The notes: generated by a model from the sequence alone, not told the origin. Shown: positions 2,776-51,313, counted from the stretch's first letter. The stretch is 64,000 nucleotides of DNA from Gloeomargaritales cyanobacterium VI4D9 (GCA_927797885.1 OV696605.1:2889157-2953156); one strand, 5' to 3'. A program made the numbers and translations.

Positions 2776-3561
2776 ATGACGATTGCAACGGCTCACCCCA
2801 ACCTCACCCTCCCCGACCACACGCAGTTACCGGAGAGCGATGGCACCTTTGTGAAAAATTTTCAGGAACACCCCCAGAGTCTGTTGCTGACAGATTCCAT
2901 TTATCCGGTTTTGGACAGGTTGCACCCGGATGGACAGTATGCCATTGGGCAAGATTGCGGCATCTATTGGCGGCTGGTAGAACCGCCGGAGCGGGGCGCA
3001 GAAGCCCCAGACTGGTTTTATGTCCCCCATGTGCCCCCTCTGTTGGACGGCAAGCGGCGGCGTTCCTATGTGCTGTGGCAGGAAGTGGTTGCCCCCTTGA
3101 TTGTGATGGAATTTGTGTCTGGGGATGGCACGGCGGAACGGGATACAGCCCCGCCTTGGGAGCGGGAAAACGGTAAACCGGGTAAATTTTGGGTGTATGA
3201 GCAGGCGATTCGGGTGCCGTTTTACGCCATTTACGAAGTGGACAAAGCCTCGGTTGAGGTATATGAATTGCTGGGGAATCGCTACCAGCGGTGTGAGCCG
3301 AACCAGCGGGGGCATGTTCCGATTGAGCCGTTGGGGGTGGAGCTAGGGATTTGGCAGGGCACCTATTTGCATCAGGCATTGCCCTGGTTACGGTGGTGGG
3401 ATCAGGACGGGAATTTATTGCTCACTGGGGACGAACGGGCAGAACAGGAAAAACAACGAGCAGAACAGGAAAAACAGCGGGCAGAACAAGAAAAGCAGCG
3501 GGCAGAACGTTTGGCGGCGAAGCTGAGAGACCTGGGGGTTGACCCGGATGAGTACTCGTGA
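2776..3561 (+). CDS. Uma2 family protein, tandem copy 2
   Basis: This 261-residue Uma2 protein is almost base-for-base identical to the gene at 1688 until its 3' end. There the AEQEKQR heptad occurs three times in a row instead of once before AERLAAKLRDLGVDPDEY. That is a 42-bp expansion within a coiled coil, as expected of replication slippage. The upstream region including the ribosome site is shared, so both copies may be expressed. Function is unknown, as for the family. Confidence 0.88.
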   Translation: MTIATAHPNLTLPDHTQLPESDGTFVKNFQEHPQSLLLTDSIYPVLDRLHPDGQYAIGQDCGIYWRLVEPPERGAEAPDWFYVPHVPPLLDGKRRRSYVLWQEVVAPLIVMEFVSGDGTAERDTAPPWERENGKPGKFWVYEQAIRVPFYAIYEVDKASVEVYELLGNRYQRCEPNQRGHVPIEPLGVELGIWQGTYLHQALPWLRWWDQDGNLLLTGDERAEQEKQRAEQEKQRAEQEKQRAERLAAKLRDLGVDPDEYS

Positions 3562-4283: not shown

Positions 4284-5519
4284 GGGCACCTCTATTTATT
4301 CAAAATATGAGAACGAAACACAAAAACAGCATAGCATTGCTCAGTACTTTTTTGTACTAAGATGACTGGGTTTTATAGATTGGTGTAGATATGACTGAAA
4401 AGAGACTTAGTATGGGGTCAAAACTCATAGATTATCAGCCGCCGCTCCCAAAACGCATAACGGCGGAAATTATAAGCGAGATTTTTCAACCCAATTGCCG
4501 CTTCTACTCTGGTTTTACCAATCAGACGCATGAACTTACCCCCAAGACACATTACCCACTGACCAAATACGTGTTCCACCTTGGCTCTCACTTGAGATTT
4601 GATGCGATTCCGTTCCTTTTGCTCGGCGGTTAGGGGCTGATTTCGGTAGCCTTTTTCATGGATTTGACTGGTAAATCCAATCCTGGCTAACGCCCATTCT
4701 AAATCCGTGCTGTGATAAGCACTATCTCCCCAGATTTCCGACCCATCAATATCCACAAGTTGACTGAATACTTGGGAGTCATGCACGGAGGCATCCGTGA
4801 CCACATAATGACGCACAAAACCATATTTTACATCCACGCTGATATGATTTTTATAGCCAAAATAGCTGATACCCTTTTTCTTTACCCAACGGGCATCTCT
4901 ATCCTTTTGCCGCAAAACATGGAGTTTTTCCTCCCATTGTTTAGGAATGTTCCCTTCCTTCACTTCTTGATTTTCTTGCCGAGTATTCCGTTGAACTGGC
5001 ACGGGAATGAGAGTGGCATCCACAATCTGACCAACTTCGACAATATATCCTTTTTCTCTCAGGTAATTATCAAAGTGAGCAAATACTTCTTTGACTAGAT
5101 CGTGCTTGGCGAGATTATCCCGAAATAACCAGATAGTTTTGGCATCAGGGATAGCGTCTTCGATACCCAATCCTAGGAATTCCATGAACGAGATACGGTC
5201 ATTCACTTAAAACTCGAGTTCATCAGCACTGATGGCATACATTTGTTGCAGAATCAACAATTTAAACATCACAATGACGTCAGTGGGTTTACGACCTGCA
5301 TTGCTCTTTCGTTCCTTGTCATATATCGTTTCTAATATTGGGCGGAAATCTTCCCAGTTAATATTTTCATTGAGCCACTTCAGCATGGGCTTTTTTTGAT
5401 TGAGTTTTTCCCGCCGCTCTTGCTCATCCCAAAATCCTTTTTGACCCATTTTTTCTCTCCACGTCATTAATACTAATTATCTCACAAATCCCTCCCAAAA
5501 TCAATTAATAGAGGTGCCC
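4284..5519 (-). mobile_element. IS5-family insertion sequence, full length
   Basis: 1236 bp with inverted ends GGGCACCTCTATTTATT and (right end, reversed) GGGCACCTCTATTAATT. It is flanked by the 4-bp duplication TTAT (4280-4283 and 5520-5523). It carries one transposase gene on the reverse strand. Its ends are shared with the MITE-2 and family-5 miniature elements elsewhere in the window, so it is a plausible source of transposase for them. Confidence 0.92.
4418..5467 (-). pseudogene. IS5-family DDE transposase with one nonsense codon
   Basis: The reading frame is continuous from the ATG at 5467 to 4418 except for a TAA at 5207-5209. That codon lies in ISADELEF-stop-VNDRISF, where the family normally has Gln, so a single CAA to TAA change explains it. 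The DDE residues lie in VDATLIPVP, GDSAYHS and RAKVEHVFG. Apart from the stop it would be a normal protein of about 348 residues. It may be inactive, or rescued by readthrough or by another copy. Confidence 0.88.
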
Positions 5520-6587: not shown

Positions 6588-7388
6588 ATGAACTCAATTA
6601 CTTGTCGTTACTGCCAGTCGAAAAATGTGATTGGGCATATTCACAATGGCAAAAAACGATATATGTGTCATGATTGTCATCGGCAATTTACTCCATCTGC
6701 CCAGAAGAAGTATATTTCTAAGGAGCAGAGGGAGATGGTTGACAAAATGTTGTTAGAACGAATTTCAATTGCGGCAATATCCCGGGTCACAGGTATTTCA
6801 AAATCCTGGTTGTATAGATATATAAAACATGTGGTGGCGTACACAGCAGAAAGTCTAGATGTTGAACCTAATAAAGATGGAGAGCTAGAGCTGGAATGCG
6901 ATGAGGTGTGGTCGTTTGTGGGTTCCAAGCAGAATCCCCAATGGCTATGGTTGGCTCTGGAAAAAACGACGCGTCTTATCGTTGTGGCTTGTATAGGAGA
7001 TAGGAGCATTGAGACAGCTAAAAAACTGTGGCGACGGCTACCTAGAGTTTGGCGTAACCAGGCTAAGTTTTACACAGACTTTTGGCAAGCCTATTGGGAG
7101 GTGATTCCTCTAAAACAACACGAAAGAGTTTCCAAAGGTAGTGGGAAAACTTCTTATATTGAGCGGTTTAACAATACCTTGAGGCAACGAATTGGGCGCC
7201 TTGCCCGGAAAACTTTATCGTTTTCCAAAAACTTAGAAAATCACATTGGTATCATCTTTAATTTCATCCATCACTATAGGGAACCTCTATTTATTGATTT
7301 TTGTACTTACGTGACAGGCTCGGAAGCCCCATTCTTTCGTCGGCAATTATCAATAACGCAGGGGTCATTCTCGATAGCCGTGAATTAA
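6588..7388 (+). CDS. IS1-family transposase with a replaced C-terminus
   Basis: The ATG at 6588 follows GGAGGAAG. The N-terminal InsA-like part has a four-cysteine zinc finger (CRYCQ, then MCHDCHRQF) and a helix-turn-helix; the InsB-like catalytic part has DDE residues in ECDEVWSFVG, YTDFWQAY and ERFNNTLRQRIGRL. The natural end is lost: MITE-2 enters at the HHY codons, so the last ~37 residues (from REPLFIDF) are encoded by the miniature element. Without it the frame reads NFIHHYNEALLG and stops. Whether the altered enzyme works cannot be told. Confidence 0.88.
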   Translation: MNSITCRYCQSKNVIGHIHNGKKRYMCHDCHRQFTPSAQKKYISKEQREMVDKMLLERISIAAISRVTGISKSWLYRYIKHVVAYTAESLDVEPNKDGELELECDEVWSFVGSKQNPQWLWLALEKTTRLIVVACIGDRSIETAKKLWRRLPRVWRNQAKFYTDFWQAYWEVIPLKQHERVSKGSGKTSYIERFNNTLRQRIGRLARKTLSFSKNLENHIGIIFNFIHHYREPLFIDFCTYVTGSEAPFFRRQLSITQGSFSIAVN

Positions 7389-7399
7389 TGGAGGTGCCC
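7279..7399. mobile_element. MITE-2 (IS5-type ends) inside the IS1 transposase
   Basis: 121 bp from GGGAACCTCTATTTATT to AATTAATGGAGGTGCCC, flanked by the 4-bp duplication TATA (7275-7278 and 7400-7403). The termini match the IS5 at 4284. The same interior occurs at 27079 and 32117. Confidence 0.92.
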
Positions 7400-22605: not shown

Positions 22606-23067
22606 TTAAATGCCATTGAATTGAAAGGCCACTAAATCCCGCTCCACGCATTTTAGGAACGCATCTGCATCAGTGGCTAGGTCAAACTCTTTTGGGAAAT
22701 TTACATGGGGATAGCTAGTTTGGACTTGAGAAAGTGCAAATTGATAGGATTCTAGCAGAACTTCGATTAGGTAGCCTTTGAGACTCGGGGATTGTTTAAG
22801 CAATATCTTAAGCTGGTATAATTGTTCTCTAATGGTTAGTTCCCAACCCCGAAAATCATATTGACTATCCACATACTTACGCTTGAGCAGGTGTTCGATT
22901 AATACTCCCAAACGACTCTGGAGTTCTCGCCGATTCCTGTTTGCCAAAGTTGCAATTTCCTCAATTAAATTTCCAATATCAAGACCCTCAAAATCTCGTT
23001 CCTTTAACTTGGTAAGGGTTTCTTCACACCAGAGATTGAAATCAGTTTCATAGAGGGAAATAGTCAT
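22606..23067 (-). CDS. DUF29-family protein
   Basis: This 153-residue protein begins MTISLYETDFNLWCEETLTKL and contains LIEEIATLANRNRRELQSRL and KRKYVDSQYDFRGWELTI, the conserved features of DUF29. The family is all helical, common in cyanobacteria and of unknown function. It stands next to the Rpn pseudogene on the same strand. The stretch 23068-23678 after it holds only repeats and the pilin promoter region. Confidence 0.88.
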   Translation of the reverse strand: MTISLYETDFNLWCEETLTKLKERDFEGLDIGNLIEEIATLANRNRRELQSRLGVLIEHLLKRKYVDSQYDFRGWELTIREQLYQLKILLKQSPSLKGYLIEVLLESYQFALSQVQTSYPHVNFPKEFDLATDADAFLKCVERDLVAFQFNGI

Positions 23068-23678: not shown

Positions 23679-24239
23679 ATGGCCGCTAACTTGAAGGTAA
23701 AACTGCTCCAGCACTTGGCGAAGAAGAATGCTAACGAAGGTTTCACCCTGGTGGAACTGCTGGTGGTGGTCGTGATCATCGGTATCCTGGCCGCGATTGC
23801 CCTGCCCTCCTTCCTGGCTCAAACCGCCAAGGCGAAACAGTCCGAAGCCCGCACCTACCTGGGTTCCTGGGCGAAAGCGCAAAAAGCCTTCCGTACCGAA
23901 AACGCCCAATTTGCTGACGATTGGACGACCCTGTCCCTGGGCTTGGGTACGGACACCCGGAACTACACCTACAGCGTTGCTGGCGGTGGTGCTGGTGTCA
24001 CTGAGGCTAGCGGATTTGGTACCAGTAAAGCCGCTGACCTGAAAAGTTATTCCGCAGCGGTGATTGTCCTGACCAAGCAAATTAATACCGGCACGGGTAC
24101 GGAAGTTGCTGTGGATATGCCCGATGGTCTCTGCGAAGCCAAATTGCCCGGTGCGGCGAAAATCGCTGCTCCTACGATTGACCCCAAGACCGCTGAAGCG
24201 GACTGCGCTCCCAACATCAACTTCCGGACTGGTAAATAG
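23679..24239 (+). CDS. pilA: Type IV pilin-like protein (PilA)
   Basis: This 186-residue prepilin has a class III signal: after 20 residues of basic leader comes EG|FTLVELLVVVVIIGILAAIALPSFL, with cleavage after Gly and Glu5 in place. The body carries AKQSEARTYLGSWAKAQKAF and two C-terminal Cys (LCEAKLPG and EADCAPN) for the D-region disulfide. Type IV pili drive motility and DNA uptake. TTAGGAG precedes the ATG and a strong terminator follows, so it is transcribed alone, as major pilins often are. Minor pilin status cannot be excluded. Confidence 0.92.
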   Translation: MAANLKVKLLQHLAKKNANEGFTLVELLVVVVIIGILAAIALPSFLAQTAKAKQSEARTYLGSWAKAQKAFRTENAQFADDWTTLSLGLGTDTRNYTYSVAGGGAGVTEASGFGTSKAADLKSYSAAVIVLTKQINTGTGTEVAVDMPDGLCEAKLPGAAKIAAPTIDPKTAEADCAPNINFRTGK

Positions 24240-24325: not shown

Positions 24326-25138
24326 TTAAGGGATTTGTTGGGGGTCTATGCCCTGATTGCGGAGGTAGGCCGCTAACCGTTCCGCCCGTTGCCGTTCTAG
24401 GAGTAATTCTTGCTCTTTTTGTTCTAATTGTTGATAAGTTTGTTCTAGCAGTTGTTCTTTTTGGATTAACTCCTGTTGAGTTTGTTCTAGCACTTGTTCT
24501 TTTTGGATTAACTCTTGTTGAGTCTGTTCTAGCACTTGTTCTTTTTGGATTAACTCTTGTTGAGTCTGTTCTAATTCCTGTGCCAATTCTACTGTGGTTT
24601 TGAACTGCTCGCCATTGGGATAATACACCAACAATTCATGGGGATTTAATTCAAATCGGATGCCTAACCGGGGACTCACCCACCCATTGACTTCCTCAAT
24701 CACCCTTAACCGATTCCCCGCCCTTTGGTAGCCATTCAATTCATTTAATTGTGGGTCATAAATATAGTATTCTTCCACCCCATACTGCTCATAAAATTCC
24801 AATTTCTTCGCCATCTCTGCCAACCGATTTCCCGGTGACAGTATCTCCAATACGACTTGGGGTGCAATGCCATTTTCTTCCCATTGCCGATAGGAACCCC
24901 GCTCCCCTTTGGGACGATTAAAGACCACCATCACATCCGGGGCAACCCGTATCTCTGGATGCCCTTCCACCGGATACCACAGCAAATCGCCCCCCACAAA
25001 TACGTCCGCATTATCCCGAAATAGACATTCCAAATTCTCTTTGAATAGGACAATCCAGCGAAATTGCAGGGTATTATCCGCCATTGGTTGACCATCACTA
25101 TCGGGATAAATGAGCTTGCGACTTGGAGTTAATGTCAT
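24326..25138 (-). CDS. Uma2 array gene 1 (last in the operon)
   Basis: 270 residues. The Uma2 fold region carries the acidic and lysine positions in RVAPDVMVVFNRP, VVLEILSPGNR and KKLEFYEQYGVEEYYIYDP. The tail holds three EQTQQELIQKEQVL-type repeats, a fourth variant, and ends AERLAAYLRNQGIDPQQIP. Unlike every other member it does not end in Gly-Gly, which fits its place as the last gene with no ribosome site to encode. I use the ATG at 25138 because GGAGG lies 8 bases ahead; an ATG at 25159 would be out of reach of it. Confidence 0.88.
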   Translation of the reverse strand: MTLTPSRKLIYPDSDGQPMADNTLQFRWIVLFKENLECLFRDNADVFVGGDLLWYPVEGHPEIRVAPDVMVVFNRPKGERGSYRQWEENGIAPQVVLEILSPGNRLAEMAKKLEFYEQYGVEEYYIYDPQLNELNGYQRAGNRLRVIEEVNGWVSPRLGIRFELNPHELLVYYPNGEQFKTTVELAQELEQTQQELIQKEQVLEQTQQELIQKEQVLEQTQQELIQKEQLLEQTYQQLEQKEQELLLERQRAERLAAYLRNQGIDPQQIP

Positions 25139-25142
25139 CGCC

Positions 25143-25979
25143 CTAACCTCCAATTTCATCAGGATTGATGCCTTGACTGCGTAAATACGCCGCTAACCGT
25201 TCCGCCCTCTGCCGTTCTTGTTCCGCTCGCTCCATTTCTTGGTTCGCCCGTTGCCGTTCTTGATTTAATTGTTCCTGAGTCTGTTCTAGCACTTGTTCTT
25301 TTTGGATTAACTCTTGCTGAGTTTGTTCTAGCACTTGTTCTTTTTGGATTAACTCCTGTTGAGTCTGTTCTAGCACTTGTTCTTTTTGGATTAACTCTTG
25401 CTGAGTTTGTTCTAATTCTTGCGCCAATTCTACTGTGGTTTTGAACTGCTCGCCATTGGGATAATACACCAACAATTCATCGGGATTTAATTCAAACCGG
25501 ATGCCTAACCGGGGACTCACCCACCCATTGATTTCCTCAATCACCCTTAACCGATTCCCCGCTCTTTGGTAGCCATTCAATTCATTTAATTGTGGGTCAT
25601 AAATATAGTATTCTTCCACCCCATACTGCTCGTAAAATTCCAATTTCTTTGCCATCTCTGCCAACCGATTTCCCGGTGACAGTATCTCCAATACGACTTG
25701 GGGTGCAATGCCATTTTCTTCCCATTGCCGATAGGAACCCCGCTCCCCTTTAGGACGGTTAAAGACCACCATCACATCCGGGGCAACCCGTATCTCTGGA
25801 TGCCCTTCCACCGGATACCACAGCAAATCGCCCCCCACAAATACGTCCGCATTATCCCGAAATAGACATTCCAAATTCTCTTTGAATAGGACAATCCAGC
25901 GAAATTGCAGGGTATTATCCGCCATTGGTTGACCATCACTATCGGGATAAATGAGCTTGCGACTTGGAGTTAATGTCAT
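25143..25979 (-). CDS. Uma2 array gene 2
   Basis: 278 residues, starting MTLTPSRKLIYPDSDGQPM. The body is almost identical to gene 1. The tail holds three 14-residue repeats, then EQTQEQLNQERQRANQEMER and the shared end RSQGINPDEIGG. The final Gly-Gly codons (GGAGGT) form the ribosome site of gene 1, 4 bases separate the stop and next ATG, so translation is likely coupled. Confidence 0.88.
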   Translation of the reverse strand: MTLTPSRKLIYPDSDGQPMADNTLQFRWIVLFKENLECLFRDNADVFVGGDLLWYPVEGHPEIRVAPDVMVVFNRPKGERGSYRQWEENGIAPQVVLEILSPGNRLAEMAKKLEFYEQYGVEEYYIYDPQLNELNGYQRAGNRLRVIEEINGWVSPRLGIRFELNPDELLVYYPNGEQFKTTVELAQELEQTQQELIQKEQVLEQTQQELIQKEQVLEQTQQELIQKEQVLEQTQEQLNQERQRANQEMERAEQERQRAERLAAYLRSQGINPDEIGG

Positions 25980-25984
25980 CACCC

Positions 25985-26737
25985 TCATCCTCCAATTTCA
26001 TCAGGATTGACGCCTTGACTGCGTAAATACGCCGCTAACCGTTCCGCCCGTTGCCGTTCTTGTTCCGCTCGCTCCATTTCTTGGTTCGCCCGTCGCCGTT
26101 CTTGATTTAATTGTTCCTGAGTCTGTTCTAGCACTTGTTCTTTTTGGATTAACTCTTGCTGAGTTTGTTCTAATTCTTGCGCCAATTCTACTGTGGTTTT
26201 GAACTGCTTGCCATTGGGATAATACACCAACAATTCATCGGGATTTAATTCAAACCGGATGCCTAACCGGGGACTCACCCACCCATTGATTTCCTCAATC
26301 ACCCTTAACCGATTCCCCACTCGTTGGTAGCCATTCAATTCATTTAATTGTGGGTCATAAATATAGTATTCTTCCACCCCATACTGCTCATAAAATTCCA
26401 ATTTCTTCGCCATCTCTGCCAACCGATTTCCCGGTGACAGTATCTCCAATACGACTTGGGGTGCAATGCCATTTTCTTCCCATTGCTGATAGGAACCCCG
26501 CTCCCCTTTAGGACGATTAAAGACTACCATCGCATCCGGGGCAACCCGTATCTCTGGATGCCCTTCCACCGGATACCACAGCAAATCTCCCCCTACAAAT
26601 ACGTCCGCATTATCCCGAAATAGACATTCCAAATTCTCTTTGAATAGGACAATCCAGCGAAATTGCAGGGTATTATCCGCCATTGGTTGACCATCACTAT
26701 CGGGATAAATGAGCTTGCGACTTGGGGTGAATGTCAT
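25985..26737 (-). CDS. Uma2 array gene 3
   Basis: 250 residues, beginning MTFTPSRK. The body has small changes (RVAPDAMVVF, GSYQQW). The tail has one 14-residue repeat followed by EQTQEQLNQERRRANQ and ends INPDEIGG-like (GVNPDEIGG). A 5-base gap to gene 2; GGAGGA over its last codons serves the next start. Confidence 0.88.
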   Translation of the reverse strand: MTFTPSRKLIYPDSDGQPMADNTLQFRWIVLFKENLECLFRDNADVFVGGDLLWYPVEGHPEIRVAPDAMVVFNRPKGERGSYQQWEENGIAPQVVLEILSPGNRLAEMAKKLEFYEQYGVEEYYIYDPQLNELNGYQRVGNRLRVIEEINGWVSPRLGIRFELNPDELLVYYPNGKQFKTTVELAQELEQTQQELIQKEQVLEQTQEQLNQERRRANQEMERAEQERQRAERLAAYLRSQGVNPDEIGG

Positions 26738-26741
26738 CGCC

Positions 26742-27598
26742 CTAACCTCCAATTTCATCAGGATTGATGCCTTGATTGCGTAAATACGCCGCTAACCGTT
26801 CCGCCCTCTGCCGTTCTAGGAGTAATTCCTGCTCTTTTTGTTCTAATTGTTGATAAGTTTGTTCTAGCACTTGTTCTTTTTGGATTAACTCCTGTTGAGT
26901 CTGTTCTAATTCCTGTGCCAATTCTACTGTGGTTTTGAACTGCTCGCCATTGGGATAATACACCAACAATTCATCGGGATTTAATTCAAATCGGATGCCT
27001 AACCGGGGACTCACCCACCCATTGATTTCCTCAATCACCCTTAACCGATTCCCCGCTCTTTGGTAGCCATTCAATTCAGGGCACCTCTATTAATTCATGG
27101 CTATTGAGAATGACCCCTGCATTATTGATAATTGCCAACGAGAGAATGGGGCTTCCAGACTCTCTGTGTCAGTACAAAAAACAATAAATAGAGGTTCCCT
27201 TCATTTAATTGTGGGTCATAAATATAGTATTCTTCCACCCCATACTGCTCGTAAAATTCCAATTTCTTTGCCATTTCTGATAACCGATTTCCCGGTGATA
27301 ATATCTCAAACACCACTTGTGGAGCAATGCCATTTTCTTCCCATTTCCGATAGGAACCCCGCTCCCCTTTGGAACGATTAAAGACTACCATCACATCCGG
27401 GGCAACCCGTATCTCTGGATGTCCTTCCACCGGATACCACAGCAAATCGCCCCCTACAAATACGTCTGAATTATCCCGAAATAGACATTCCAAATTCTCT
27501 TTGAATAGGACAATCCAGCGAAATTGCAGGGTATTATCCGCCATTGGTTGACCATCACTATCGGGATAAATGAGCTTGCGACTTGGGGTGAATGTCAT
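26742..27598 (-). pseudogene. Uma2 array gene 4, split by a MITE-2
   Basis: The gene is whole except for a 121-bp miniature element with its 4-bp duplication at 27079-27203. Removing it restores a 243-residue protein equal in length to gene 5, with IYDPQLNELNGYQRAGNR at the joint. As it stands translation ends inside the element after about 158 residues (ending QRVWKPHSLVGNYQ), past the catalytic strands but before the coiled coil. An internal restart at the ATG near 27074 could give the tail alone. Confidence 0.9.
27079..27199. mobile_element. MITE-2 in Uma2 array gene 4
   Basis: 121 bp from GGGCACCTCTATTAATT to AATAAATAGAGGTTCCC, flanked by TTCA (27075-27078 and 27200-27203). The empty site is present in all neighbouring paralogues. 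Confidence 0.95.
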
Positions 27599-27602
27599 CG
27601 CC

Positions 27603-28334
27603 CTAACCTCCAATTTCATCAGGATTGATGCCTTGACTGCGTAAATACGCCGCTAACCGTTCCGCCCGTTGCCGTTCTAGGAGTAATTCCTGCTCTTTTT
27701 GTTCTAATTGTTGATAAGTTTGTTCTAGCACTTGTTCTTTTTGGATTAACTCTTGTTGAGTCTGTTCTAATTCCTGTGCCAATTCTACTGTGGTTTTGAA
27801 CTGCTCGCCATTGGGATAATACACCAGCAATTCATCGGGATTTAATTCAAATCGGATGCCTAACCGGGGACTCACCCACCCATTCATTTCCTCAATCACC
27901 CTTAAGCGATTCCCCGCTCTTTGGTAGCCATTCAATTCATTTAATTGTGGGTCATAGATGTAGTATTCTTCCACCCCATACTGCTCGTAAAATTCCAATT
28001 TCTTTGCCATTTCTGATAACCGATTTCCCGGTGACAGTATCTCCAATACGACTTGGGGTGCAATGCCATTTTCTTCCCATTGCCGATAGGAACCCCGCTC
28101 CCCTTTGGGACGGTTAAAGACTACCATCACATCCGGGGCAACCCGTATCTCTGGATGCCCTTCCACCGGATACCACAGCAAATCGCCCCCCACAAATACG
28201 TCCGCATTATCCCGAAATAGACATTCCAAATTCTCTTTGAATAGGACAATCCAGCGAAATTGCAGGGTATTATCCGCCATTGGTTGACCATCACTATCGG
28301 GATAAATGAGCTTGCGACTTGGAGTTAATGTCAT
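27603..28334 (-). CDS. Uma2 array gene 5
   Basis: 243 residues. One EQTQQELIQKEQVL repeat and EQTYQQLEQKEQELLLERQR make up the coiled coil, ending GINPDEIGG. It starts MTLTPSRK; the gap to gene 4 is 4 bases and GGAGG in its last codons serves gene 4. Confidence 0.88.
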   Translation of the reverse strand: MTLTPSRKLIYPDSDGQPMADNTLQFRWIVLFKENLECLFRDNADVFVGGDLLWYPVEGHPEIRVAPDVMVVFNRPKGERGSYRQWEENGIAPQVVLEILSPGNRLSEMAKKLEFYEQYGVEEYYIYDPQLNELNGYQRAGNRLRVIEEMNGWVSPRLGIRFELNPDELLVYYPNGEQFKTTVELAQELEQTQQELIQKEQVLEQTYQQLEQKEQELLLERQRAERLAAYLRSQGINPDEIGG

Positions 28335-28339
28335 CACCC

Positions 28340-29008
28340 TCATCCTCCAATTTCATCAGGATTGATGCCTTGACTGCGTAAATACGCCGCTAACCGTTCC
28401 GCCCGTCGCCGTTCTAGGAGTAATTCCTGCTGGGTCTGTTCTAATTCTTGCGCCAATTCTACTGTGGTTTTGAACTGCTTGCCATTGGGATAATACACCA
28501 ACAATTCATCGGGATTTAATTCAAACCGGATGCCTAACCGGGGACTCACCCACCCATTGATTTCCTCAATCACCCTCAACCGATTCCCTGCTCTTTGGTA
28601 GCCATTCAATTCATTTAATTGTGGGTCGTAGATGTAGTATTCTTCCACCCCATACTGCTCGTAAAATTCCAATTTCTTTGCCATCTCTGCCAACCGATTT
28701 CCCGGTGACAGTATCTCCAATACGACTTGTGGAGCAATGCCATTTTCTTCCCATTGCCGATAGGAACCCCGCTCCCCTTTGGGACGATTAAAGACTACCA
28801 TCACATCCGGGGCAACCCGTATCTCTGGATGTCCTTCCACCGGATACCACAGCAAATCTCCCCCTACAAATACGTCGGAATTATCCCGAAATAGACATTC
28901 CAAATTCTCTTTGAATAGGACAATCCAGCGAAATTGCAGGGTATTATCCGCCATTGGTTGACCATCACTATCGGGATAAATGAGCTTGCGACTTGGAGTT
29001 AATGTCAT
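28340..29008 (-). CDS. Uma2 array gene 6
   Basis: 222 residues, a short member: the coiled coil is reduced to QELEQTQQELLLERRRAERL with no complete 14-residue repeat. Catalytic-region motifs are as in the others, with the NSDVF variant in place of NADVF. Ends GINPDEIGG over the ribosome site of gene 5. Confidence 0.87.
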   Translation of the reverse strand: MTLTPSRKLIYPDSDGQPMADNTLQFRWIVLFKENLECLFRDNSDVFVGGDLLWYPVEGHPEIRVAPDVMVVFNRPKGERGSYRQWEENGIAPQVVLEILSPGNRLAEMAKKLEFYEQYGVEEYYIYDPQLNELNGYQRAGNRLRVIEEINGWVSPRLGIRFELNPDELLVYYPNGKQFKTTVELAQELEQTQQELLLERRRAERLAAYLRSQGINPDEIGG

Positions 29009-29012
29009 CGCC

Positions 29013-29807
29013 CTAACCTCCAATTTCATCAGGATTGATGCCTTGACTGCGTAAATACGCCGCTAACCGTTCCGCCCTCTGCCGTTCTTGTTCCGCTCGC
29101 TCCATTTCTTGGTTCGCCCGTTGCTGTTCTTGATTTAATTGTTCCTGAGTCTGTTCTAGCACTTGTTCTTTTTGGATTAACTCTTGTTGAGTCTGTTCTA
29201 ATACTTGTTCTTTTTGGATTAACTCCTGTTGAGTCTGTTCTAATTCCTGTGCCAATTCTACTGTGGTTTTGAACTGCTCACCATTGGGATAATACACCAA
29301 CAATTCATCGGGATTTAATTCAAACCGGATGCCTAACCGGGGACTCACCCACCCATTGATTTCCTCAATCACCCTCAACCGATTCCCTACTCTTTGGTAG
29401 CCATTCAATTCATTTAATTGTGGGTCGTAGATGTAGTATTCTTCCACCCCATACTGCTCGTAAAATTCCAATTTCTTTGCCATCTCTGCCAACCGATTTC
29501 CCGGTGATAATATCTCAAACACCACTTGTGGAGCAATGCCATTTTCTTCCCATTGCCGATAGGAACCCCGCTCCCCTTTGGGACGATTAAAGACTACCAT
29601 CACATCCGGGGCAACCCGTATCTCTGGATGTCCTTCCACCGGATACCACAGCAAATCTCCCCCTACAAATACGTCGGAATTATCCCGAAATAGACATTCC
29701 AAATTCTCTTTGAATAGGACAATCCAGCGAAATTGCAGGGTATTATCCGCCATTGGTTGACCATCACTATCGGGATAAATGAGCTTGCGACTTGGGGTGA
29801 ATGTCAT
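29013..29807 (-). CDS. Uma2 array gene 7
   Basis: 264 residues with two 14-residue repeats, then EQTQEQLNQEQQRANQEMER. It carries the VVFEILSPGNR and NSDVF variants. Starts MTFTPSRK, ends GINPDEIGG. Confidence 0.87.
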   Translation of the reverse strand: MTFTPSRKLIYPDSDGQPMADNTLQFRWIVLFKENLECLFRDNSDVFVGGDLLWYPVEGHPEIRVAPDVMVVFNRPKGERGSYRQWEENGIAPQVVFEILSPGNRLAEMAKKLEFYEQYGVEEYYIYDPQLNELNGYQRVGNRLRVIEEINGWVSPRLGIRFELNPDELLVYYPNGEQFKTTVELAQELEQTQQELIQKEQVLEQTQQELIQKEQVLEQTQEQLNQEQQRANQEMERAEQERQRAERLAAYLRSQGINPDEIGG

Positions 29808-29811
29808 CGCC

Positions 29812-30585
29812 CTAACCTCCAATTTCATCAGGATTGACGCCTTGACTGCGTAAATACGCCGCTAACCGTTCCGCCCTCTGCCGTTCTTGTTCCGCTCGCT
29901 CCATTTCTTGGTTCGCCCGTTGCCGTTCTAGGAGTAATTCCTGCTCTTTTTGTTCTAATTGTTGATGCGTTTGTTCTAACATCTGCTCTTTTTGGATTAA
30001 CTCCTGTTGAGTTTGTTCTAATTCCTGTGCCAATTCTACTGTGGTTTTGAACTGCTCGCCATTGGGATAATACACCAGCAATTCATCGGGATTTAATTCA
30101 AACCGGATGCCTAACCGGGGACTCACCCACCCATTCATTTCCTCAATCACCCTTAACCGATTCCCCGCTCTTTGGTAGCCATTCAATTCATTTAATTGTG
30201 GGTCATAGATGTAATATTCCTCCACCCCATACTGCTCGTAAAATTCCAATTTCTTTGCCATCTCTGCCAACCGATTTCCCGGTGACAGTATCTCCAATAC
30301 GACTTGGGGTGCAATGCCATTTTCTTCCCATTGCCGATAGGAACCCCGCTCCCCTTTGGGACGATTAAAGACTACCATCACATCCGGGGCAACCCGTATC
30401 TCTGGATGCCCTTCCACCGGATACCACAGCAAATCGCCCCCTACAAATACGTCGGCATTATCCCGAAATAGGCATTCCAAATTCTCTTTGAATAGGACAA
30501 TCCAGCGAAATTGCAGGGTATTATCCGCCATTGGTTGACCATCACTATCGGGATAAATGAGCTTGCGACTTGGGGTGAATGTCAT
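29812..30585 (-). CDS. Uma2 array gene 8
   Basis: 257 residues. The tail has one repeat in the form EQTQQELIQKEQML, then EQTHQQLEQKEQELLLERQR and the QEMERAEQERQR block. The HQQ and QML variants are shared only with gene 10, at DNA level too. Ends GVNPDEIGG. Confidence 0.87.
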   Translation of the reverse strand: MTFTPSRKLIYPDSDGQPMADNTLQFRWIVLFKENLECLFRDNADVFVGGDLLWYPVEGHPEIRVAPDVMVVFNRPKGERGSYRQWEENGIAPQVVLEILSPGNRLAEMAKKLEFYEQYGVEEYYIYDPQLNELNGYQRAGNRLRVIEEMNGWVSPRLGIRFELNPDELLVYYPNGEQFKTTVELAQELEQTQQELIQKEQMLEQTHQQLEQKEQELLLERQRANQEMERAEQERQRAERLAAYLRSQGVNPDEIGG

Positions 30586-30589
30586 CGCC

Positions 30590-31237
30590 CTAACCTCCAA
30601 TTTCATCAGGATTGACGCCTTGACTGCGTAAATACGCCGCTAACCGTTCCGCCCTCTGCCGTTCTCGTTCCAATTCTTGTGCCAATTCTACTGTGGTTTT
30701 GAACTGCTCGCCATTGGGATAATACACCAACAATTCATCAGGATTTAATTCAAACCGGATGCCTAACCGGGGACTCACCCACCCATTGACTTCCTCAATC
30801 ACCCTTAACCGATTCCCCGCTCTTTGGTAGCCATTCAATTCATTTAATTGTGGGTCGTAGATGTAGTATTCTTCCACCCCATACTGCTCATAAAATTCCA
30901 ATTTCTTCGCCATCTCTGCCAACCGATTTCCCGGTGATAATATCTCAAACACCACTTGTGGAGCAATGCCATTTTCTTCCCATTGCCGATAGGAACCCCG
31001 CTCCCCTTTGGGACGGTTAAAGACTACCATCACATCCGGGGCAACCCGTATCTCTGGATGCCCTTCCACCGGATACCACAGCAAATCGCCCCCCACAAAT
31101 ACGTCCGCATTATCCCGAAATAGACATTCCAAATTCTCTTTGAATAGGACAATCCAGCGAAATTGCAGGGTATTATCCGCCATTGGTTGACCATCACTAT
31201 CGGGATAAATGAGCTTGCGACTTGGAGTTAATGTCAT
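30590..31237 (-). CDS. Uma2 array gene 9
   Basis: 215 residues, the shortest intact copy: the coiled coil is only AQELERERQRAERLAAYL. The body has the VVFEILSPGNR variant with NADVF. Ends GVNPDEIGG over the ribosome site of gene 8. Confidence 0.87.
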   Translation of the reverse strand: MTLTPSRKLIYPDSDGQPMADNTLQFRWIVLFKENLECLFRDNADVFVGGDLLWYPVEGHPEIRVAPDVMVVFNRPKGERGSYRQWEENGIAPQVVFEILSPGNRLAEMAKKLEFYEQYGVEEYYIYDPQLNELNGYQRAGNRLRVIEEVNGWVSPRLGIRFELNPDELLVYYPNGEQFKTTVELAQELERERQRAERLAAYLRSQGVNPDEIGG

Positions 31238-31242
31238 CACCC

Positions 31243-31995
31243 TCATCCTCCAATTTCATCAGGATTGACGCCTTGACTGCGTAAATACGCCGCTAACCGT
31301 TCCGCCCGTTGCCGTTCTCGTTCCGCTCGCTCCATTTCTTGGTTCGCCCGTCGCCGTTCTAGGAGTAATTCCTGCTCTTTTTGTTCTAATTGTTGATGCG
31401 TTTGTTCTAACATCTGCTCTTTTTGGATTAACTCCTGTGCCAATTCATCAGGGGTGAGTAACTTTTCCCGATTATCCAAGCGGTACAAATCCAAACGCCC
31501 CATACCCGGCTCCAACCGCAAACCCAATACCTCACTCACCGTATCTCTAATAGAACGATATACCCCACTCTCATCTAAGTAATAACCCCGCAATTGCCCC
31601 TCAATCCATTCCCCTAGCGGGTCAAATAACCAATACTCCCTGACCCCAATTTGTTCATACAACCCTTTTTTAAATCCCCAATCCATCTCCCTTGTCCCTT
31701 CGGAGGTGACTTCAATAATAATCCCCGGCGCTTGACCCTCTTCCCACAATTTATAACTGCGGCGCATCCCCGGCTCAATCCCAAAGACCACCATTACATC
31801 TGGTGCAACTCTTGCCCTGGGATTCCCCTCAATGTAATAGAAAAACTGGTCAGCAAACACCACCGCCCGTTCTCCCAAATACCGGCTCAGCATACTTAAT
31901 AAACTTAAGATTACCCACACATGGGTCTGGGTCTCGGCCAAGGGTTCCCCATCGCTATCGGGATAAATTACGGCTCGTGCTTCAGCTGTGGTCAT
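31243..31995 (-). CDS. Uma2 array gene 10 (first gene, divergent body, shared tail)
   Basis: 250 residues. The body (MTTAEARAVIYPDSDGEPLA, RVAPDVMVVFGIEPGMR, GIIIEVTSEGTREMDWGFK, YEQIGVREYWLFDP) is only distantly related to the other nine, but the tail from AQELIQKEQML to GVNPDEIGG is the array tail, nearly identical in DNA to gene 8. This is therefore a chimera. It is probably the first translated gene; the start lies 31 bases after the stop of the remnant upstream. Confidence 0.87.
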   Translation of the reverse strand: MTTAEARAVIYPDSDGEPLAETQTHVWVILSLLSMLSRYLGERAVVFADQFFYYIEGNPRARVAPDVMVVFGIEPGMRRSYKLWEEGQAPGIIIEVTSEGTREMDWGFKKGLYEQIGVREYWLFDPLGEWIEGQLRGYYLDESGVYRSIRDTVSEVLGLRLEPGMGRLDLYRLDNREKLLTPDELAQELIQKEQMLEQTHQQLEQKEQELLLERRRANQEMERAERERQRAERLAAYLRSQGVNPDEIGG

Positions 31996-32026
31996 CGGCG
32001 TTTTGTCAACTTTTATCCTAATATAA

Positions 32027-32116
32027 TCAATCGGTTAGCCCCTCCGGGTTGATACCCTGACTGCGTAAATGAGCCGCTAGCCGTTCTACTGAGTCTGTTC
32101 TAAGAGGCTGTTTAAA
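32027..32116 (-). pseudogene. Uma2 array remnant (C-terminal end of an eleventh gene)
   Basis: The reverse strand reads SVERLAAHLRSQGINPEGLTD before a stop at 32027, which is the C-terminal tail of a Uma2 protein. The rest is missing and MITE-2 (32117-32238) borders it. Confidence 0.75.
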
Positions 32117-32238
32117 GGGCACATCTATTAATTCATGACTATTGGGAATAACTCCTACGTTATTGATAATTGCCAACGAGAGAATCGGGCTTCCAAGCCT
32201 GCCGTGTAAGTACAAAAATCAATAACTAGAGGTGCCCA
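32117..32238. mobile_element. MITE-2 copy at the border of the Uma2 array
   Basis: GGGCACATCTATTAATTC to CTAGAGGTGCCC with the common interior. No matching target duplication is seen, so the flanks were rearranged after insertion. Confidence 0.85.
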
Positions 32239-46552: not shown

Positions 46553-46996
46553 TTATTGCCTCTGCCATTGATCACCAGCTAAGGTAAACCTCTGGTCATA
46601 AACTTCATCATCCCTCGATGAAACCTGCCTGATGATTACAAAGTTGTCTTTAATCGTCCATTTTTCATCCCATCTATTATCTTTGTCAAGGTCAATCTTA
46701 AGACGATTCCAACGATTAAATCCTTGATCCCGATAGAGATTAACCTTATAGGTACGACCTGGTAATGCATCTTTAACCTTATCCCTGTCGGCCTTGCGCC
46801 TACGGATTAAATCCAAAACTTCCCTATCAACTGTTCGGAGATTACTGCTATCAGCATAGGCGGGAGAATTGAAACTAAAAATATGGGATTGGTTACTTTC
46901 ATAACATAAAACAATTAAGCCAGTCATAGAAAATACAGTAAAACTCCCAATAATACCTACAACACCGTTAACAATCCTTGCTCTAGTTCGTTCCAT
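46553..46996 (-). CDS. Small membrane-anchored protein with a calcium-loop-like motif (last gene of the six-gene operon)
   Basis: 147 residues. One N-terminal membrane helix (VVGIIGSFTVFSMTGLIVLC) should leave about 105 residues outside the cytoplasm. That part is basic and acidic in turn and contains IDLDKDNRWDEKWTI, which has the DxDxD-x3-D spacing of an EF-hand or dockerin-type loop, but Trp stands where the last ligand Glu would be. I do not recognise the family. It follows the radical SAM gene by 3 bases and could be the substrate or target of the operon. Confidence 0.75.
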   Translation of the reverse strand: MERTRARIVNGVVGIIGSFTVFSMTGLIVLCYESNQSHIFSFNSPAYADSSNLRTVDREVLDLIRRRKADRDKVKDALPGRTYKVNLYRDQGFNRWNRLKIDLDKDNRWDEKWTIKDNFVIIRQVSSRDDEVYDQRFTLAGDQWQRQ

Positions 46997-46999
46997 GAC

Positions 47000-47860
47000 C
47001 TACTCCTTGACAAACATCATCCTACGTTCAATCGGAACAGTACAGTTGCAATAATTATACAAACAAGGGCGAGGCGTGTCAAATAATTGTAAAGAGCCTT
47101 TAAGAATGTTGCCTAAATACTCTTTTCGGTAGCGTCTCGCAGGGTAACACCGCCAGGCATCACCCCGATCATCTAGGGTAAAATACCTGCTACCAGCCCA
47201 ACATAATCTTCCCTTAAAATTAAATGCTATTTCCTGTAATTGATTATGACCGCCCAATCGTTTCAATAATAATTCTTCCTCAGGGGAATATTTGATTACT
47301 TCACGATCCTGCTTTTCTGGTTGAATCTTAAAAGTAATTTTATGTGACATAAACCAGTTATGCAGAGATACTAAATGAGGCAAGTTATCTCTAGTAGCGA
47401 CACAGGTTACATTGACACTAGAACGGATTGGAATATGAGACTGTAACCAATTAATTTTATTGGTAAACTCCAGTAGGGCTAATTCAGTATTAACATACTC
47501 CCTATGCAAACTAATGGAAAACACCTTGAGATGATCACCAGTAGCTTCTAAAAAACTGCTCAGCCTAGAAATATTGGCAGAAAAGTTAGAAACAATACTT
47601 ACATAGTGCCCTAAACTAACAATTCCCGCTACCAACTCATCTAATTTTGGATGAAGGAATGGTTCTCCCCCGGATAACTTGATCTCCCATATACCTGGTA
47701 ATTGAGCAAAAGCCCTTAAGAAAGCCTCTATTTCTCCCCCCCGTCTCGTTCGATCTTTCAGATGACGTTGTGTACAGTAGGAACAACGATAGTTACACGC
47801 TGTGTTGATATTCCAGGTAATTACCCCTCCTAAAGGCTCAGTAAAATCCTTACTGTTCAT
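47000..47860 (-). CDS. Radical SAM protein with C-terminal Cys cluster, paralogue A
   Basis: 286 residues. CNYRCSYC at about 22-29 binds the SAM 4Fe-4S cluster; IKLSGGEPFLHP is the GGEP SAM-binding motif. The C-terminal region (LCWAGSRYFTLDD, WRCYPARRY, CLYNYCNCTVP) has the Cys of a SPASM-like auxiliary cluster domain. Such enzymes modify peptides or other large substrates. Its nearest relative is the next upstream gene (47857), with which it shares the whole layout. Start and stop overlap in ATGA. Confidence 0.88.
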   Translation of the reverse strand: MNSKDFTEPLGGVITWNINTACNYRCSYCTQRHLKDRTRRGGEIEAFLRAFAQLPGIWEIKLSGGEPFLHPKLDELVAGIVSLGHYVSIVSNFSANISRLSSFLEATGDHLKVFSISLHREYVNTELALLEFTNKINWLQSHIPIRSSVNVTCVATRDNLPHLVSLHNWFMSHKITFKIQPEKQDREVIKYSPEEELLLKRLGGHNQLQEIAFNFKGRLCWAGSRYFTLDDRGDAWRCYPARRYRKEYLGNILKGSLQLFDTPRPCLYNYCNCTVPIERRMMFVKE

Positions 47861-48693
47861 AATTCAATCATCCCTCGATTAGCAGGTACAGTGCAAGGAC
47901 AAATGGTATAGGGACAGGGTCTGGAGTGATTCCACAATTTGACATCTCCTTGGAAAACATTACCCAAATAACCTTCCTTATAACGCTTAGCAGTGCGACA
48001 AGACCAAGCATTACCAAACTGATCTAGAATAAAATAATCAACACCTGCCCAACATGGGTAGCCATAGTAACTAGGGGATAGATTTGCCTGTTTAGAATTT
48101 GGTTTATCGCCAATTAGCAGTGGCAAAATCTCTCGGTCGGATTCGCTATAATTAAATTTTCCTGTTTTAGTTTTTAACCACTGAGGGAAATAAGTAAAAC
48201 CTTCCGACTCAACTTCATGTTTTACTTCTAATAATTCTGTCAAAGTTGTGGGCACCAATACACTATTGACTACAATCGTTACTTCCTGGGGTAATAAGGA
48301 ACGGAGGTATTTTAGTTTAGTTAGAAAAGATTTGAGGTCAACAAATTCACGGTGTAAACTAGTGGAAATGATATTAACTTTGTGTCCTATTAGTTTGCAA
48401 AATTCTGATAAAGTATAACGAGAAGCAGATAAATTAGTCAGTATAGAAACACGATGATTTAGCTGAGCAAGACCAGGTATAATTTGATTCATAAAACCGG
48501 GAAAAGCAAACGGTTCTCCCCCAGACATTTTAATTTCCCATTCCCCCTCTAATTGACTAAAGAATTCTAAAAATTTGTCTATTTCTTCAGATGTAGGATA
48601 ACCCTGACGATATTTAGGGGATTGAATGCAATAAGAACAATTGTAATTGCATATTCCATTGGTTTGCCACTCGATGGTGCGCTGACGTTTCAT
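47857..48693 (-). CDS. Radical SAM protein with C-terminal Cys cluster, paralogue B
   Basis: 278 residues from the ATG at 48693, which overlaps the previous stop in ATGA and follows GGAGG; an upstream in-frame ATG at 48759 is less likely. CNYNCSYC, EIKMSGGEPFAFP and the C-terminal YPCWAGVDYFILDQ, WSCRTAKRY and CPYTICPCTVP parallel paralogue A closely. The pair may form a heterodimer or act one after the other on one substrate. Confidence 0.88.
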   Translation of the reverse strand: MKRQRTIEWQTNGICNYNCSYCIQSPKYRQGYPTSEEIDKFLEFFSQLEGEWEIKMSGGEPFAFPGFMNQIIPGLAQLNHRVSILTNLSASRYTLSEFCKLIGHKVNIISTSLHREFVDLKSFLTKLKYLRSLLPQEVTIVVNSVLVPTTLTELLEVKHEVESEGFTYFPQWLKTKTGKFNYSESDREILPLLIGDKPNSKQANLSPSYYGYPCWAGVDYFILDQFGNAWSCRTAKRYKEGYLGNVFQGDVKLWNHSRPCPYTICPCTVPANRGMIEL

Positions 48694-49724
48694 ACTGACT
48701 CTGCCTCCACCCGTTGTTTCCATTTGAAATTCTGATTTAGTTTGCCACATTGATAACAACTATTAAAATAGTTCCCCGACCTTAGTCGTTCTCTCAATTC
48801 TTGCCACTTTTTACCATACCAATGTTGAGAGAATGGAGCCTCTGTCAGAGAACCTACCACAACTTCTTTTGAACAGCAATATAAAATCGTTCCATCTACT
48901 GTGATACGACTATAAACCCAACCCATATAACAACCAATTGATTCAATAGGGGCAGTTGCCAGAGACCCAATGGCAACCTGCTGTTCAAATACATCCAAAT
49001 TTGTTTTTACTTCTAATTTTTTAGCCATATTTTTAGCAAGAGGAATTAATAGGGCAAATAATTCTTCTCTTTGCTCGTTGCTGATCGTCCAAATCTCAGT
49101 TCCTTCTCCTAAACTAGCGAGCTTAAAGGTAATTTGGGACGCTTGATAGTTGTGGGCAAATTTGACCATTTCAACTAACTCTTGATAATTCTCATTAATG
49201 ATTACCTGGACTTGCTTGAATCGCTTTCCTGCTGATGCAAATTCTCCCAAAATTTCGCACAATCGTTCAAAATCCTTGGGTGTTAAGTTGGGATGAAATG
49301 CCGTGTAAGATTTGGGAGTAACACCATTTACTGAAATCAATAACATATCTACATCAGATGCTAGAACACGTCCTGGATCACACTTTAAGCCATTCGTCAA
49401 AACCGTGGTGTGCCAACCGTACTCCTTACATTGAGCAATCATTTGGTAAATATAAGGATTGAGAAACGGCTCTCCCATTCCTGATAAAATTACAGCTTTT
49501 ACAGAGTTCATCCTCGCTATATCCTGCGTGAGAGCATCAAACATTTCCCAAGACATTTGTTGCTTTTTCCAGCCCTGAGAACGGGGTGTTTTTAGTGAAG
49601 GTGAGTGATCCCAACAAGTGACACAGTTCGTATTACAGGCATTGGTAATATCAATATGCACTGTTTGTGGACCAGTGTAAACATTCCCACTTTTCATACC
49701 CAAAATATAAAGATGATCTTTCAT
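48690..49724 (-). CDS. Radical SAM/SPASM-type protein
   Basis: 344 residues. CNTNCVTC near residue 30 binds the SAM cluster; ILSGMGEPFLNP is a variant of the GGEP motif. The C-terminal half has IGCYMGWVYSRITVDG, YCCSKEVVVG and NSCYQCGKLNQNF, a SPASM-like set. It differs from paralogues A and B. It overlaps the glycosyltransferase gene by ATGA. Confidence 0.88.
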   Translation of the reverse strand: MKDHLYILGMKSGNVYTGPQTVHIDITNACNTNCVTCWDHSPSLKTPRSQGWKKQQMSWEMFDALTQDIARMNSVKAVILSGMGEPFLNPYIYQMIAQCKEYGWHTTVLTNGLKCDPGRVLASDVDMLLISVNGVTPKSYTAFHPNLTPKDFERLCEILGEFASAGKRFKQVQVIINENYQELVEMVKFAHNYQASQITFKLASLGEGTEIWTISNEQREELFALLIPLAKNMAKKLEVKTNLDVFEQQVAIGSLATAPIESIGCYMGWVYSRITVDGTILYCCSKEVVVGSLTEAPFSQHWYGKKWQELRERLRSGNYFNSCYQCGKLNQNFKWKQRVEAESV

Positions 49725-51313
49725 GCAGTTTTAATCTCCTTTATACTTAGTTGCAGTGACATTGATAAATTGGCATCAGTTTGATTCCAGTAACGATGGA
49801 ATACACTCAAGCCTCGCCATAGACTCTCATGTTTATCTAAAAGAGTTTCTAAAAATTGGCTTACAGATGTGACGAAAGTCCTATCAATTGAGAGTGGCAA
49901 AAGTCTTAAAAAAGATCGCACGCCGTTATCATCGTTAAAAGATAATAATAGAGGTAGCCATTCTCTAAAAGCTTCGCATACAATCTGATAGTCATGTGCT
50001 TCTAGTTTCCATCGTTTTGACCATAACAGCCACCAGTCCCACCCTGTGTTTATCTGTCCTTGAGGCATACGTTCTATAAGTTTGTAAAATACTGTTGCTT
50101 TCATTTCACTGTCTTCTAGCATTGATAGTCCTTGATGAACAAGTTCCCAGTCCAATCCTGTTTTCTCTACTGCTTGGCAGAAATCAATGGTCAATAATTC
50201 ATCAACTTCTTCTAAAAATAGTTTGGGGGCGAGCAAATGCGTAACTATTTTGGCAGTATCTTTAGCATAGTTTCTAGGTACAAAATTTTTAGCCCTTTGA
50301 GAAAGTTCTTCTCTTTTTTGATCATCTTTCATCTGTAAGACTAAATCATCAATATCGTCCAGAGCTAATGCGGCACCTACCCTCACGGCAGTATCAAGGC
50401 GTTTTTGTTGGTCATCTGCTGTCTTAGATTGGCTGTAGAAAGCGGTAGGGACTCCGACGTGAAGAAGCTCATAATAACTGTTAAAGCCAGCGGCAGAAAT
50501 TGCCCAGTCTATTCCAGGGAATAAATTAACTGCTAAGGGATCATTTAACCAGGTAATGTTTCCTCCTCTGATAGGCGTACCACGGTATAAAATTCCTGCA
50601 CCAATCACTAGATGTAAATGCTGATAATTCTCTAGTTGCTTGGCGAGACGATTTAACAGATACTCAGCTTGGGAATCTCCTCCGCCGCCCGCACTTAGCC
50701 ATACGGCTTGTTTCCCCTCGGGTATGCCTAAAATCTTCCGGGCTTCACTTCGTAATAGTAACTCTTCTCTTTCTCTGAGAAAGATAGGACCAACGATATC
50801 GAGTCTGTCTTTTATCTCATCAGTAAATTCTACAGGGGGTAATTCAGATTCTTTGGGTATAATGATCCGATTGTAATAGGGCAAAAAATTATATATCTCT
50901 GCTTCTTCGGCAAATTCCGGCTTTACAGACCGGAGAATAAGTACTTTTTTCGCAACACTATCAAGAATTTGATATAGCTCTCCAAAGGTGCCACAGGGAA
51001 AGGTGTCAACAATCAGAAGATCAGGATTGATTAAACCAATTGAGTGCCATATCCACTGCCTAGCGAGACGCAAATAATCTTCTTTCACAAGTTTACCTAG
51101 CTGTGCTACAGTCTTACTCGGTATCTTAAAAGTAGCAATCCCCTCCTGAGTAGCCAGTTGAATTCCTTCAGAAGATGTGAGTAAGTAGATTTGTGGTTTT
51201 ATGCCCAACAAATACAGGTATCTTTTTAGCCAGCGTAAAATACTACAAAGACGAGTAAGATGTCCTAGTCCAGACCCATTAACTCCATAAGCAACTATTT
51301 TACAGGTATTCAT
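49721..51313 (-). CDS. GT-B glycosyltransferase with a helical C-terminal extension
   Basis: 530 residues. The N-terminal GVNGSGLGHLTRLCSILRWL matches the GHxxR nucleotide-sugar transferase loop seen in MurG-like/COG4671 proteins. The donor half shows WLSAGGGGDSQAEYLLNRLA and AISAAGFNSYYELLHVGVPTAF. About 150 residues after the GT-B core (from FLEEVDELLTID) are helical with no known domain. Donor and acceptor are unknown. Its ATG overlaps the stop of the coiled-coil gene by one base (TGATG). Confidence 0.82.
   Translation of the reverse strand: MNTCKIVAYGVNGSGLGHLTRLCSILRWLKRYLYLLGIKPQIYLLTSSEGIQLATQEGIATFKIPSKTVAQLGKLVKEDYLRLARQWIWHSIGLINPDLLIVDTFPCGTFGELYQILDSVAKKVLILRSVKPEFAEEAEIYNFLPYYNRIIIPKESELPPVEFTDEIKDRLDIVGPIFLREREELLLRSEARKILGIPEGKQAVWLSAGGGGDSQAEYLLNRLAKQLENYQHLHLVIGAGILYRGTPIRGGNITWLNDPLAVNLFPGIDWAISAAGFNSYYELLHVGVPTAFYSQSKTADDQQKRLDTAVRVGAALALDDIDDLVLQMKDDQKREELSQRAKNFVPRNYAKDTAKIVTHLLAPKLFLEEVDELLTIDFCQAVEKTGLDWELVHQGLSMLEDSEMKATVFYKLIERMPQGQINTGWDWWLLWSKRWKLEAHDYQIVCEAFREWLPLLLSFNDDNGVRSFLRLLPLSIDRTFVTSVSQFLETLLDKHESLWRGLSVFHRYWNQTDANLSMSLQLSIKEIKTA

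Follow-up and report, generated by a model that had tools for sequence, protein, structure and literature searches.

Ten consecutive Uma2 genes lie on the minus strand between positions 24326 and 31995 of the window, the 64,000-nucleotide stretch of the Gloeomargaritales cyanobacterium VI4D9 genome analysed here, and are transcribed from 31995 towards 24326 (Table 1). All ten match PF05685 (58-67 bits, against a curated cut-off of 27, with 59-67 bits in a scan of five of the proteins) and, counting from the inner ATG, are separated by gaps of 4 bases (TAG-GGCG-ATG) or 5 bases (TGA-GGGTG-ATG); if the outer ATG were used, neighbouring reading frames would overlap by 17 or 4. The ORFs, the profile matches and the inner starts bear out the first-pass annotation, which had described ten consecutive same-strand Uma2 genes with gaps of 4-5 bases, and its two further observations hold as well: one gene is broken by a MITE (gene 7, by a 121-bp element with a TTCA duplication), and a truncated eleventh gene stands at the 5' border, as a tail-only remnant ending at a MITE.

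Table 1. Features of the Uma2 array and its borders; k is the number of heptads added to the shortest tail.
Feature	Position	Strand	Description	Tail	Remarks
Gene 1	31243-31995	-	Uma2, other head subfamily, 250 aa	31243-31446	PF05685, 64 bits
Gene 2	30590-31246	-	Uma2, 218 aa, shortest tail, k=0	30590-30688	
Gene 3	29812-30606	-	Uma2, 264 aa, k=6	29812-30036	AlphaFold2 model
Gene 4	29013-29828	-	Uma2, 271 aa, k=7	29013-29258	
Gene 5	28340-29029	-	Uma2, 229 aa, k=1	28340-28459	
Gene 6	27603-28343	-	Uma2, 246 aa, k=4	27603-27785	
Gene 7	26742-27619	-	Uma2, split by a MITE		Head ORF 27122-27619; tail-bearing ORF 26742-27074 (k=4)
MITE in gene 7	27079-27199		121 bp, terminal inverted repeats		TSD TTCA (27075-27078 / 27200-27203)
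Gene 8	25985-26758	-	Uma2, 257 aa, k=5	25985-26188	
Gene 9	25143-25988	-	Uma2, 281 aa, longest tail, k=9	25143-25430	
Gene 10	24326-25159	-	Uma2, 277 aa, k=8, final gene	24326-24589	Ends GIDPQQIP, without the Gly-Gly that encodes the SD
Eleventh Uma2 remnant	32027-32116	-	Tail only (...VERLAAHLRSQGINPEGLTD)		Broken off exactly at the second MITE
Second MITE copy	32117-32237				At the 5' border of the array
Type IV pilin-like gene (Pilin_GH)	23679-24239	+	Convergent with the array		Pfam; synteny with G004 and G001

Near-identity is limited to genes 2-10, whose 558-bp heads are 95.0-98.4% identical, whereas gene 1 shares with gene 3 only 52% DNA identity in the head but 96.6% over 204 bp in the tail. 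Frameshifts and stops are absent from nine of the ten copies. The array is carried by a single-contig genome (3.16 Mb), and its nine like copies are nine distinct haplotypes, seven with private head variants and the other two with unique tail lengths; since a sister species also has its own six-gene version, an assembly artefact is unlikely. Identical copies may have collapsed in assembly.

Matches to the 121-bp MITE family number 42 in the present genome and 12 in species G003 of the genus, and a further copy in the window lies at 7279-7399. An IS5-type element at 4284-5519 (DDE_Tnp_1 plus DUF772, apparent TSD TTAT) has terminal repeats in common with the family and is likely its transposase source. 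Two other features of the window were noted: a DUF29 gene close to the array (22606-23067), and a cluster at 46553-52785 in which Pfam confirms at least one radical SAM protein (47857-48759), beside neighbours with radical-SAM-like N-termini and two large proteins (49721-51313 and 51313-52785) without a Pfam match.

The junctions between the genes have a feature in common. The GGAGG that would serve each next gene is formed by the Gly-Gly codons that end the previous one, with the inner ATG 8 bases after it, and it is absent at the end of gene 10 and of gene 1 in G004, where a 42-base gap follows. An unrelated array, in G028, has the same device in different codons, with AGGAGATAGCTAATG at its junctions. 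Since each unit ends in its own ribosome-binding site, any tandem duplicate would be translatable, and the arrangement suggests that the genes of the array are translationally coupled.

The cassette in the genus and exchange between its copies

The cassette was searched for in six other species of the genus (this genome being G000) and comprises six genes in G003, three in G004, two in both G001 and G005, and at least one in G006, while no close match to it was found in G002. Copy number at the locus thus varies from 0 to 10, and with intact arrays of six, three and two genes in the genus, decay of the array in all relatives, which the first-pass annotation had named as telling against its reading, is not what is seen. 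In G004 and G001, the cassette lies between a thiO-like oxidase gene, with dnaN beyond it, and the same pilin as here; the thiO and dnaN neighbours are also present in G005 and G006. G000 retains the pilin side and has zwf (glucose-6-phosphate dehydrogenase-like) on the other, and in G003 the array is at another location; the names thiO, dnaN and zwf are readings of the translations. In all, three species of the genus have the Pilin_GH type IV pilin beside the cassette, and the GIDPQQIP ending is common to the last gene here and the last gene in G004, beside the same pilin, so that this end of the operon is probably ancestral. The best explanation is that a small cassette already in the genus, made of a gene-1 type and a gene-2 type, was enlarged into the array in this lineage.

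By profile searches, there are 48 Uma2 copies in this genome and 55 and 63 in sister species, with a range of 5-63 across the genus. The family has been described as expanded and erratically distributed in cyanobacteria by Feder and Bujnicki, who counted tandem duplications and called them rare (PMC551604), and as consisting mostly of cassettes of paralogous genes by Makarova et al., who predicted a solo toxin (PMC2701414). The earlier statement that Uma2 genes are usually scattered therefore agrees with the first of these accounts but not with the second, and the present locus is a tandem Uma2 cassette of a kind already reported (PMC2701414, PMC551604). More distant arrays have five genes (G028) or three or more (G015 and G055). 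In a Hormoscilla MAG (L097:7065-18016), at least 11 Uma2 heads are set apart by regular 150-bp spacers, and in several copies the frame shifts at an identical codon, after 101 aa, owing either to a read error at that site or to a frame that can switch.

The nine like heads have a mean dN of 0.0105 and dS of 0.132 (ratio 0.08), and the ratio is 0.044 in the G003 array and 0.058 between species. Positive diversifying selection on the heads is rejected on these values (0.04-0.08), and the array copies are kept working by purifying selection. Recombination was detected in the heads (PHI p=0.0002, minimum of 11 events), and the similarity between copies has no relation to their distance apart in the array, as expected from exchange across the array. 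Head identity is 96.6% within G000 and 96.7% within G003 but 90.4% between the two, compared with 94% in an 8.6-kb collinear block, and the heads cluster in two species-wise groups (support 100/98). The 18 fixed differences and six shared polymorphisms between species fit concerted evolution, to which independent amplification may contribute. In summary, the array copies are homogenised by gene conversion, and the suggestion of a diversifying set is not borne out for the heads, given purifying selection and a homogenising exchange within the array.

The tails have behaved differently. The shortest tail is second in both the G000 and G003 arrays, and G000 gene 6 and G003 gene 4 both carry the TYQQ tail, at 96.2% DNA identity; as some tail types are common to both species, the heads were homogenised while the tail types persisted. 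Tails are also exchanged between unlike heads. In 21 pairs of unlike heads from the same cassette, not all of them independent because several share an array, mean tail identity is 73.8% over 26 residues, against 48.4% in random unlike-head pairs. The clearest cases outside this array are locus L030 of Dolichospermum, where the heads are 34% identical and the tails 100% in amino acids and 94% in DNA, and the G055 and G033 cassettes. Hence, as read from these sequences, tails gain and lose whole heptads and pass between unlike heads of one cassette. The tail was not found as a module on other proteins, since in this genome and the fetched loci only Uma2 ORFs or fragments carry it.

Heptad register and predicted structure of the tail

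When measured from ELAQEL to the stop codon, with differing last residues allowed for, 19 tails from three species are 33+7k residues long. The register was followed in a wider sample of relatives, which were collected by head similarity to one query, are relatives of one head subfamily, and come from cyanobacteria and from MAGs labelled Chloroflexaceae, Isosphaeraceae, Kapaibacterium, Contendobacter and Competibacteraceae. The distance from the SPRLG anchor to the cap has a single phase modulo 7 in 151 of 176 proteins, the remainder being for the most part either members of other head subfamilies, each with its own constant offset, or proteins with a one-residue loop insertion in the head. 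When the distance is instead taken between the last head strand and the C-terminal cap, one phase is found in 151 of the 152 relatives that have both anchors (the 24 proteins without the second anchor being left out) and in 129 of 130 outside the genus, the sole exception being a rearranged protein. These phase-locked tails span 17 to 136 residues, in 15 length classes. Other indels do occur in the heads, whose length is off the mode in 19 of 138. The variable tails remarked on at first pass are supported, with length changes in whole heptads only. The same step is seen in a recent duplicate pair of another Uma2 subfamily in the window (1688-2431 and 2776-3561), where the heads are identical at 657 of 660 bases and the tails differ by exactly 42 nt, that is two heptads.

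Heptad steps could be partly mutational, through 21-bp slippage, and not selected. Taken to its end, this would make the array the product of tandem duplication and slippage, multiplicity without function, by a neutral or mildly favoured spread of a mobile solo family, which we regard as possible but doubtful. The expansion and erratic distribution of Uma2 in cyanobacteria (PMC551604) and the wide ranges of copy number within the genus, for whole genomes and for this locus alike, are what it would predict. However, dN/dS is low in all comparisons of intact copies, nine of the ten copies have stayed open, and the phase persists where the DNA repeat can no longer be recognised: in 40 of 129 tails, no two neighbouring 21-bp units reach 75% identity, and still these tails keep phase, some of them with a 14-residue unit. 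Recent slippage alone can therefore not explain the lock, although selection and slippage bias are only partly separable here.

The AlphaFold2 monomer model of gene 3 has one helix of 66 residues (189-254, pLDDT mostly 93-98), followed by a turn and a short helix. The tails are least polar at phases 0 and 3, which matches positions a and d of a coiled coil. Glu is nevertheless common at d, so that the helix may pair only weakly or stand alone. The register lock and the predicted helix together make a parallel coiled coil, which would pair two nuclease heads, the most likely form of the tail. The earlier idea that the subunits assemble by coiled coils has thus gained support, from the single long predicted helix and from the length changes by whole heptads.

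If the tails do pair, their length might choose the partner. In Rpn proteins, an oligomerisation helix of 4-residue repeats sets the partners, and pairing takes place only at equal repeat number (PMC10327210). By analogy, the number of heptads would decide pairing here, and the array would be a set of insulated, mutually non-pairing nucleases. The eight intact gene-2-type copies do have eight lengths (k=0, 1, 4, 5, 6, 7, 8 and 9), the only gene-2-type copy of equal length to another in the array is the dead gene 7, and the five gene-2-type copies of G003 (k=0-4) are all different. Across 17 arrays, however, 8 of 105 pairs are of equal length, and equal-length members are found in the two-gene cassettes L022 and L153. 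Avoidance of equal lengths, striking here and in keeping with G003, is not significant as a general rule (p=0.48 by shuffling, 0.12 against all tails), and we consider such a length code unlikely.

Predicted nuclease head and relation to known families

The predicted head structure has the PD-(D/E)XK fold, and the best Foldseek matches of the AlphaFold2 model are the solved Uma2/DUF820 structures 9y1l, 6okh, 3ot2 and 1wdj (E 3e-7 to 5e-5). As all these chains are of 190 residues or fewer, they offer no solved counterpart to the tail. The PD-EXX-K residues of gene 3 are D75, E105 and K119; they are present in all gene-2-type copies, and among 63 relatives D75 and K119 are invariant and E105 is kept in at least 90%. 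The spacing of 14 from E to K is the same as that inferred for Tt1808 from R118 and K130 (PMC551604). The array thus shares with the Uma2/DUF820/COG4636 family (PF05685) its profile, its fold, its PD-EXX-K residues, and the reported expansion and tandem cassettes. It differs from the known members in being a ten-gene operon with one dominant head, a heptad-locked tail, the SD in the last codons, and tail exchange. The literature on PDC-S03 and on Uma2 with coiled coil or heptad yielded nothing on the tail, and a description of the heptad lock, of the SD in the last codons, or of tail exchange between unlike heads was not found there.

Gene 3 (E 5e-14) and gene 1 (E 3e-15) match the PADLOC profile PDC-S03, a label for phage defence candidates, yet there is no defence neighbourhood, the flanks of the array being free of defence genes, methyltransferase and antitoxin. 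The locus does not have the make-up of a type II toxin-antitoxin system, its neighbours being the pilin and the glucose-6-phosphate dehydrogenase-like gene and its operon all Uma2, or of a restriction-modification system, there being no methyltransferase next to the array.

We therefore lean, at somewhat better than even confidence, towards nuclease-like subunits that are paired by an in-register coiled coil and have been amplified as a unit that also encodes the ribosome-binding site of the next gene. The multiplying unit would be the head, the helical tail and the terminal Gly-Gly codons (GGAGG) that serve the following gene. The coiled-coil tail would keep a constant helical phase between the head and the C-terminal cap (LAAxLRxxGIxPD), and the array members would provide alternative dimers of a dosage-amplified nuclease, all of them in register. 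A DNA-acting solo effector in defence or stress would be the likeliest role, and is also the least certain step; choice of partner by length and a function in defence are conjectural.

Rpn proteins resemble the array in their PD-(D/E)XK head, C-terminal helix of variable repeat number and tandem arrays, one of which has 11 genes in Thermosynechococcus TA-1 (PMC9403480). They differ in their 4-residue repeats and internally translated RpnS, whereas the array has 7-residue steps and lacks signs of an internal start; the Rpn (COG5464) profile is not matched, and Pfam finds only Uma2. The shared design, and the free tail ORFs in gene 7 and the remnant, would suit a toxin with an intragenic antitoxin, in which a separately made tail restrains the full-length nuclease. 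An internal Met is, however, present in only 32 of 176 tails, and SD-plus-start sites in the tails are fewer in frame (15) than in the +1 frame (72). The sequences give no support to an Rpn-type internal start, and we hold this arrangement to be very improbable.

To return to subunits paired by a coiled coil, a broader extension would make Uma2 a large class of solo PD-EXX-K effectors, in which heptad-locked coiled-coil tails serve as an adjustable ruler or a pairing code and arrays generate in-register variants, a heptad counterpart of Rpn; we offer this as a speculation with little likelihood of holding in full. Uma2 is among the most expanded unexplained gene families of cyanobacteria, and a near-universal rule for its measured tails, across several phyla, gives this vague family a concrete structural hypothesis. 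A spacer of variable repeat number is also found in HsdS of EcoR124I/II, where, in the account cited in PMC10327210, the number of TAEL repeats alters specificity; HsdS is a type I specificity subunit, whereas the array stands without restriction-modification partners.
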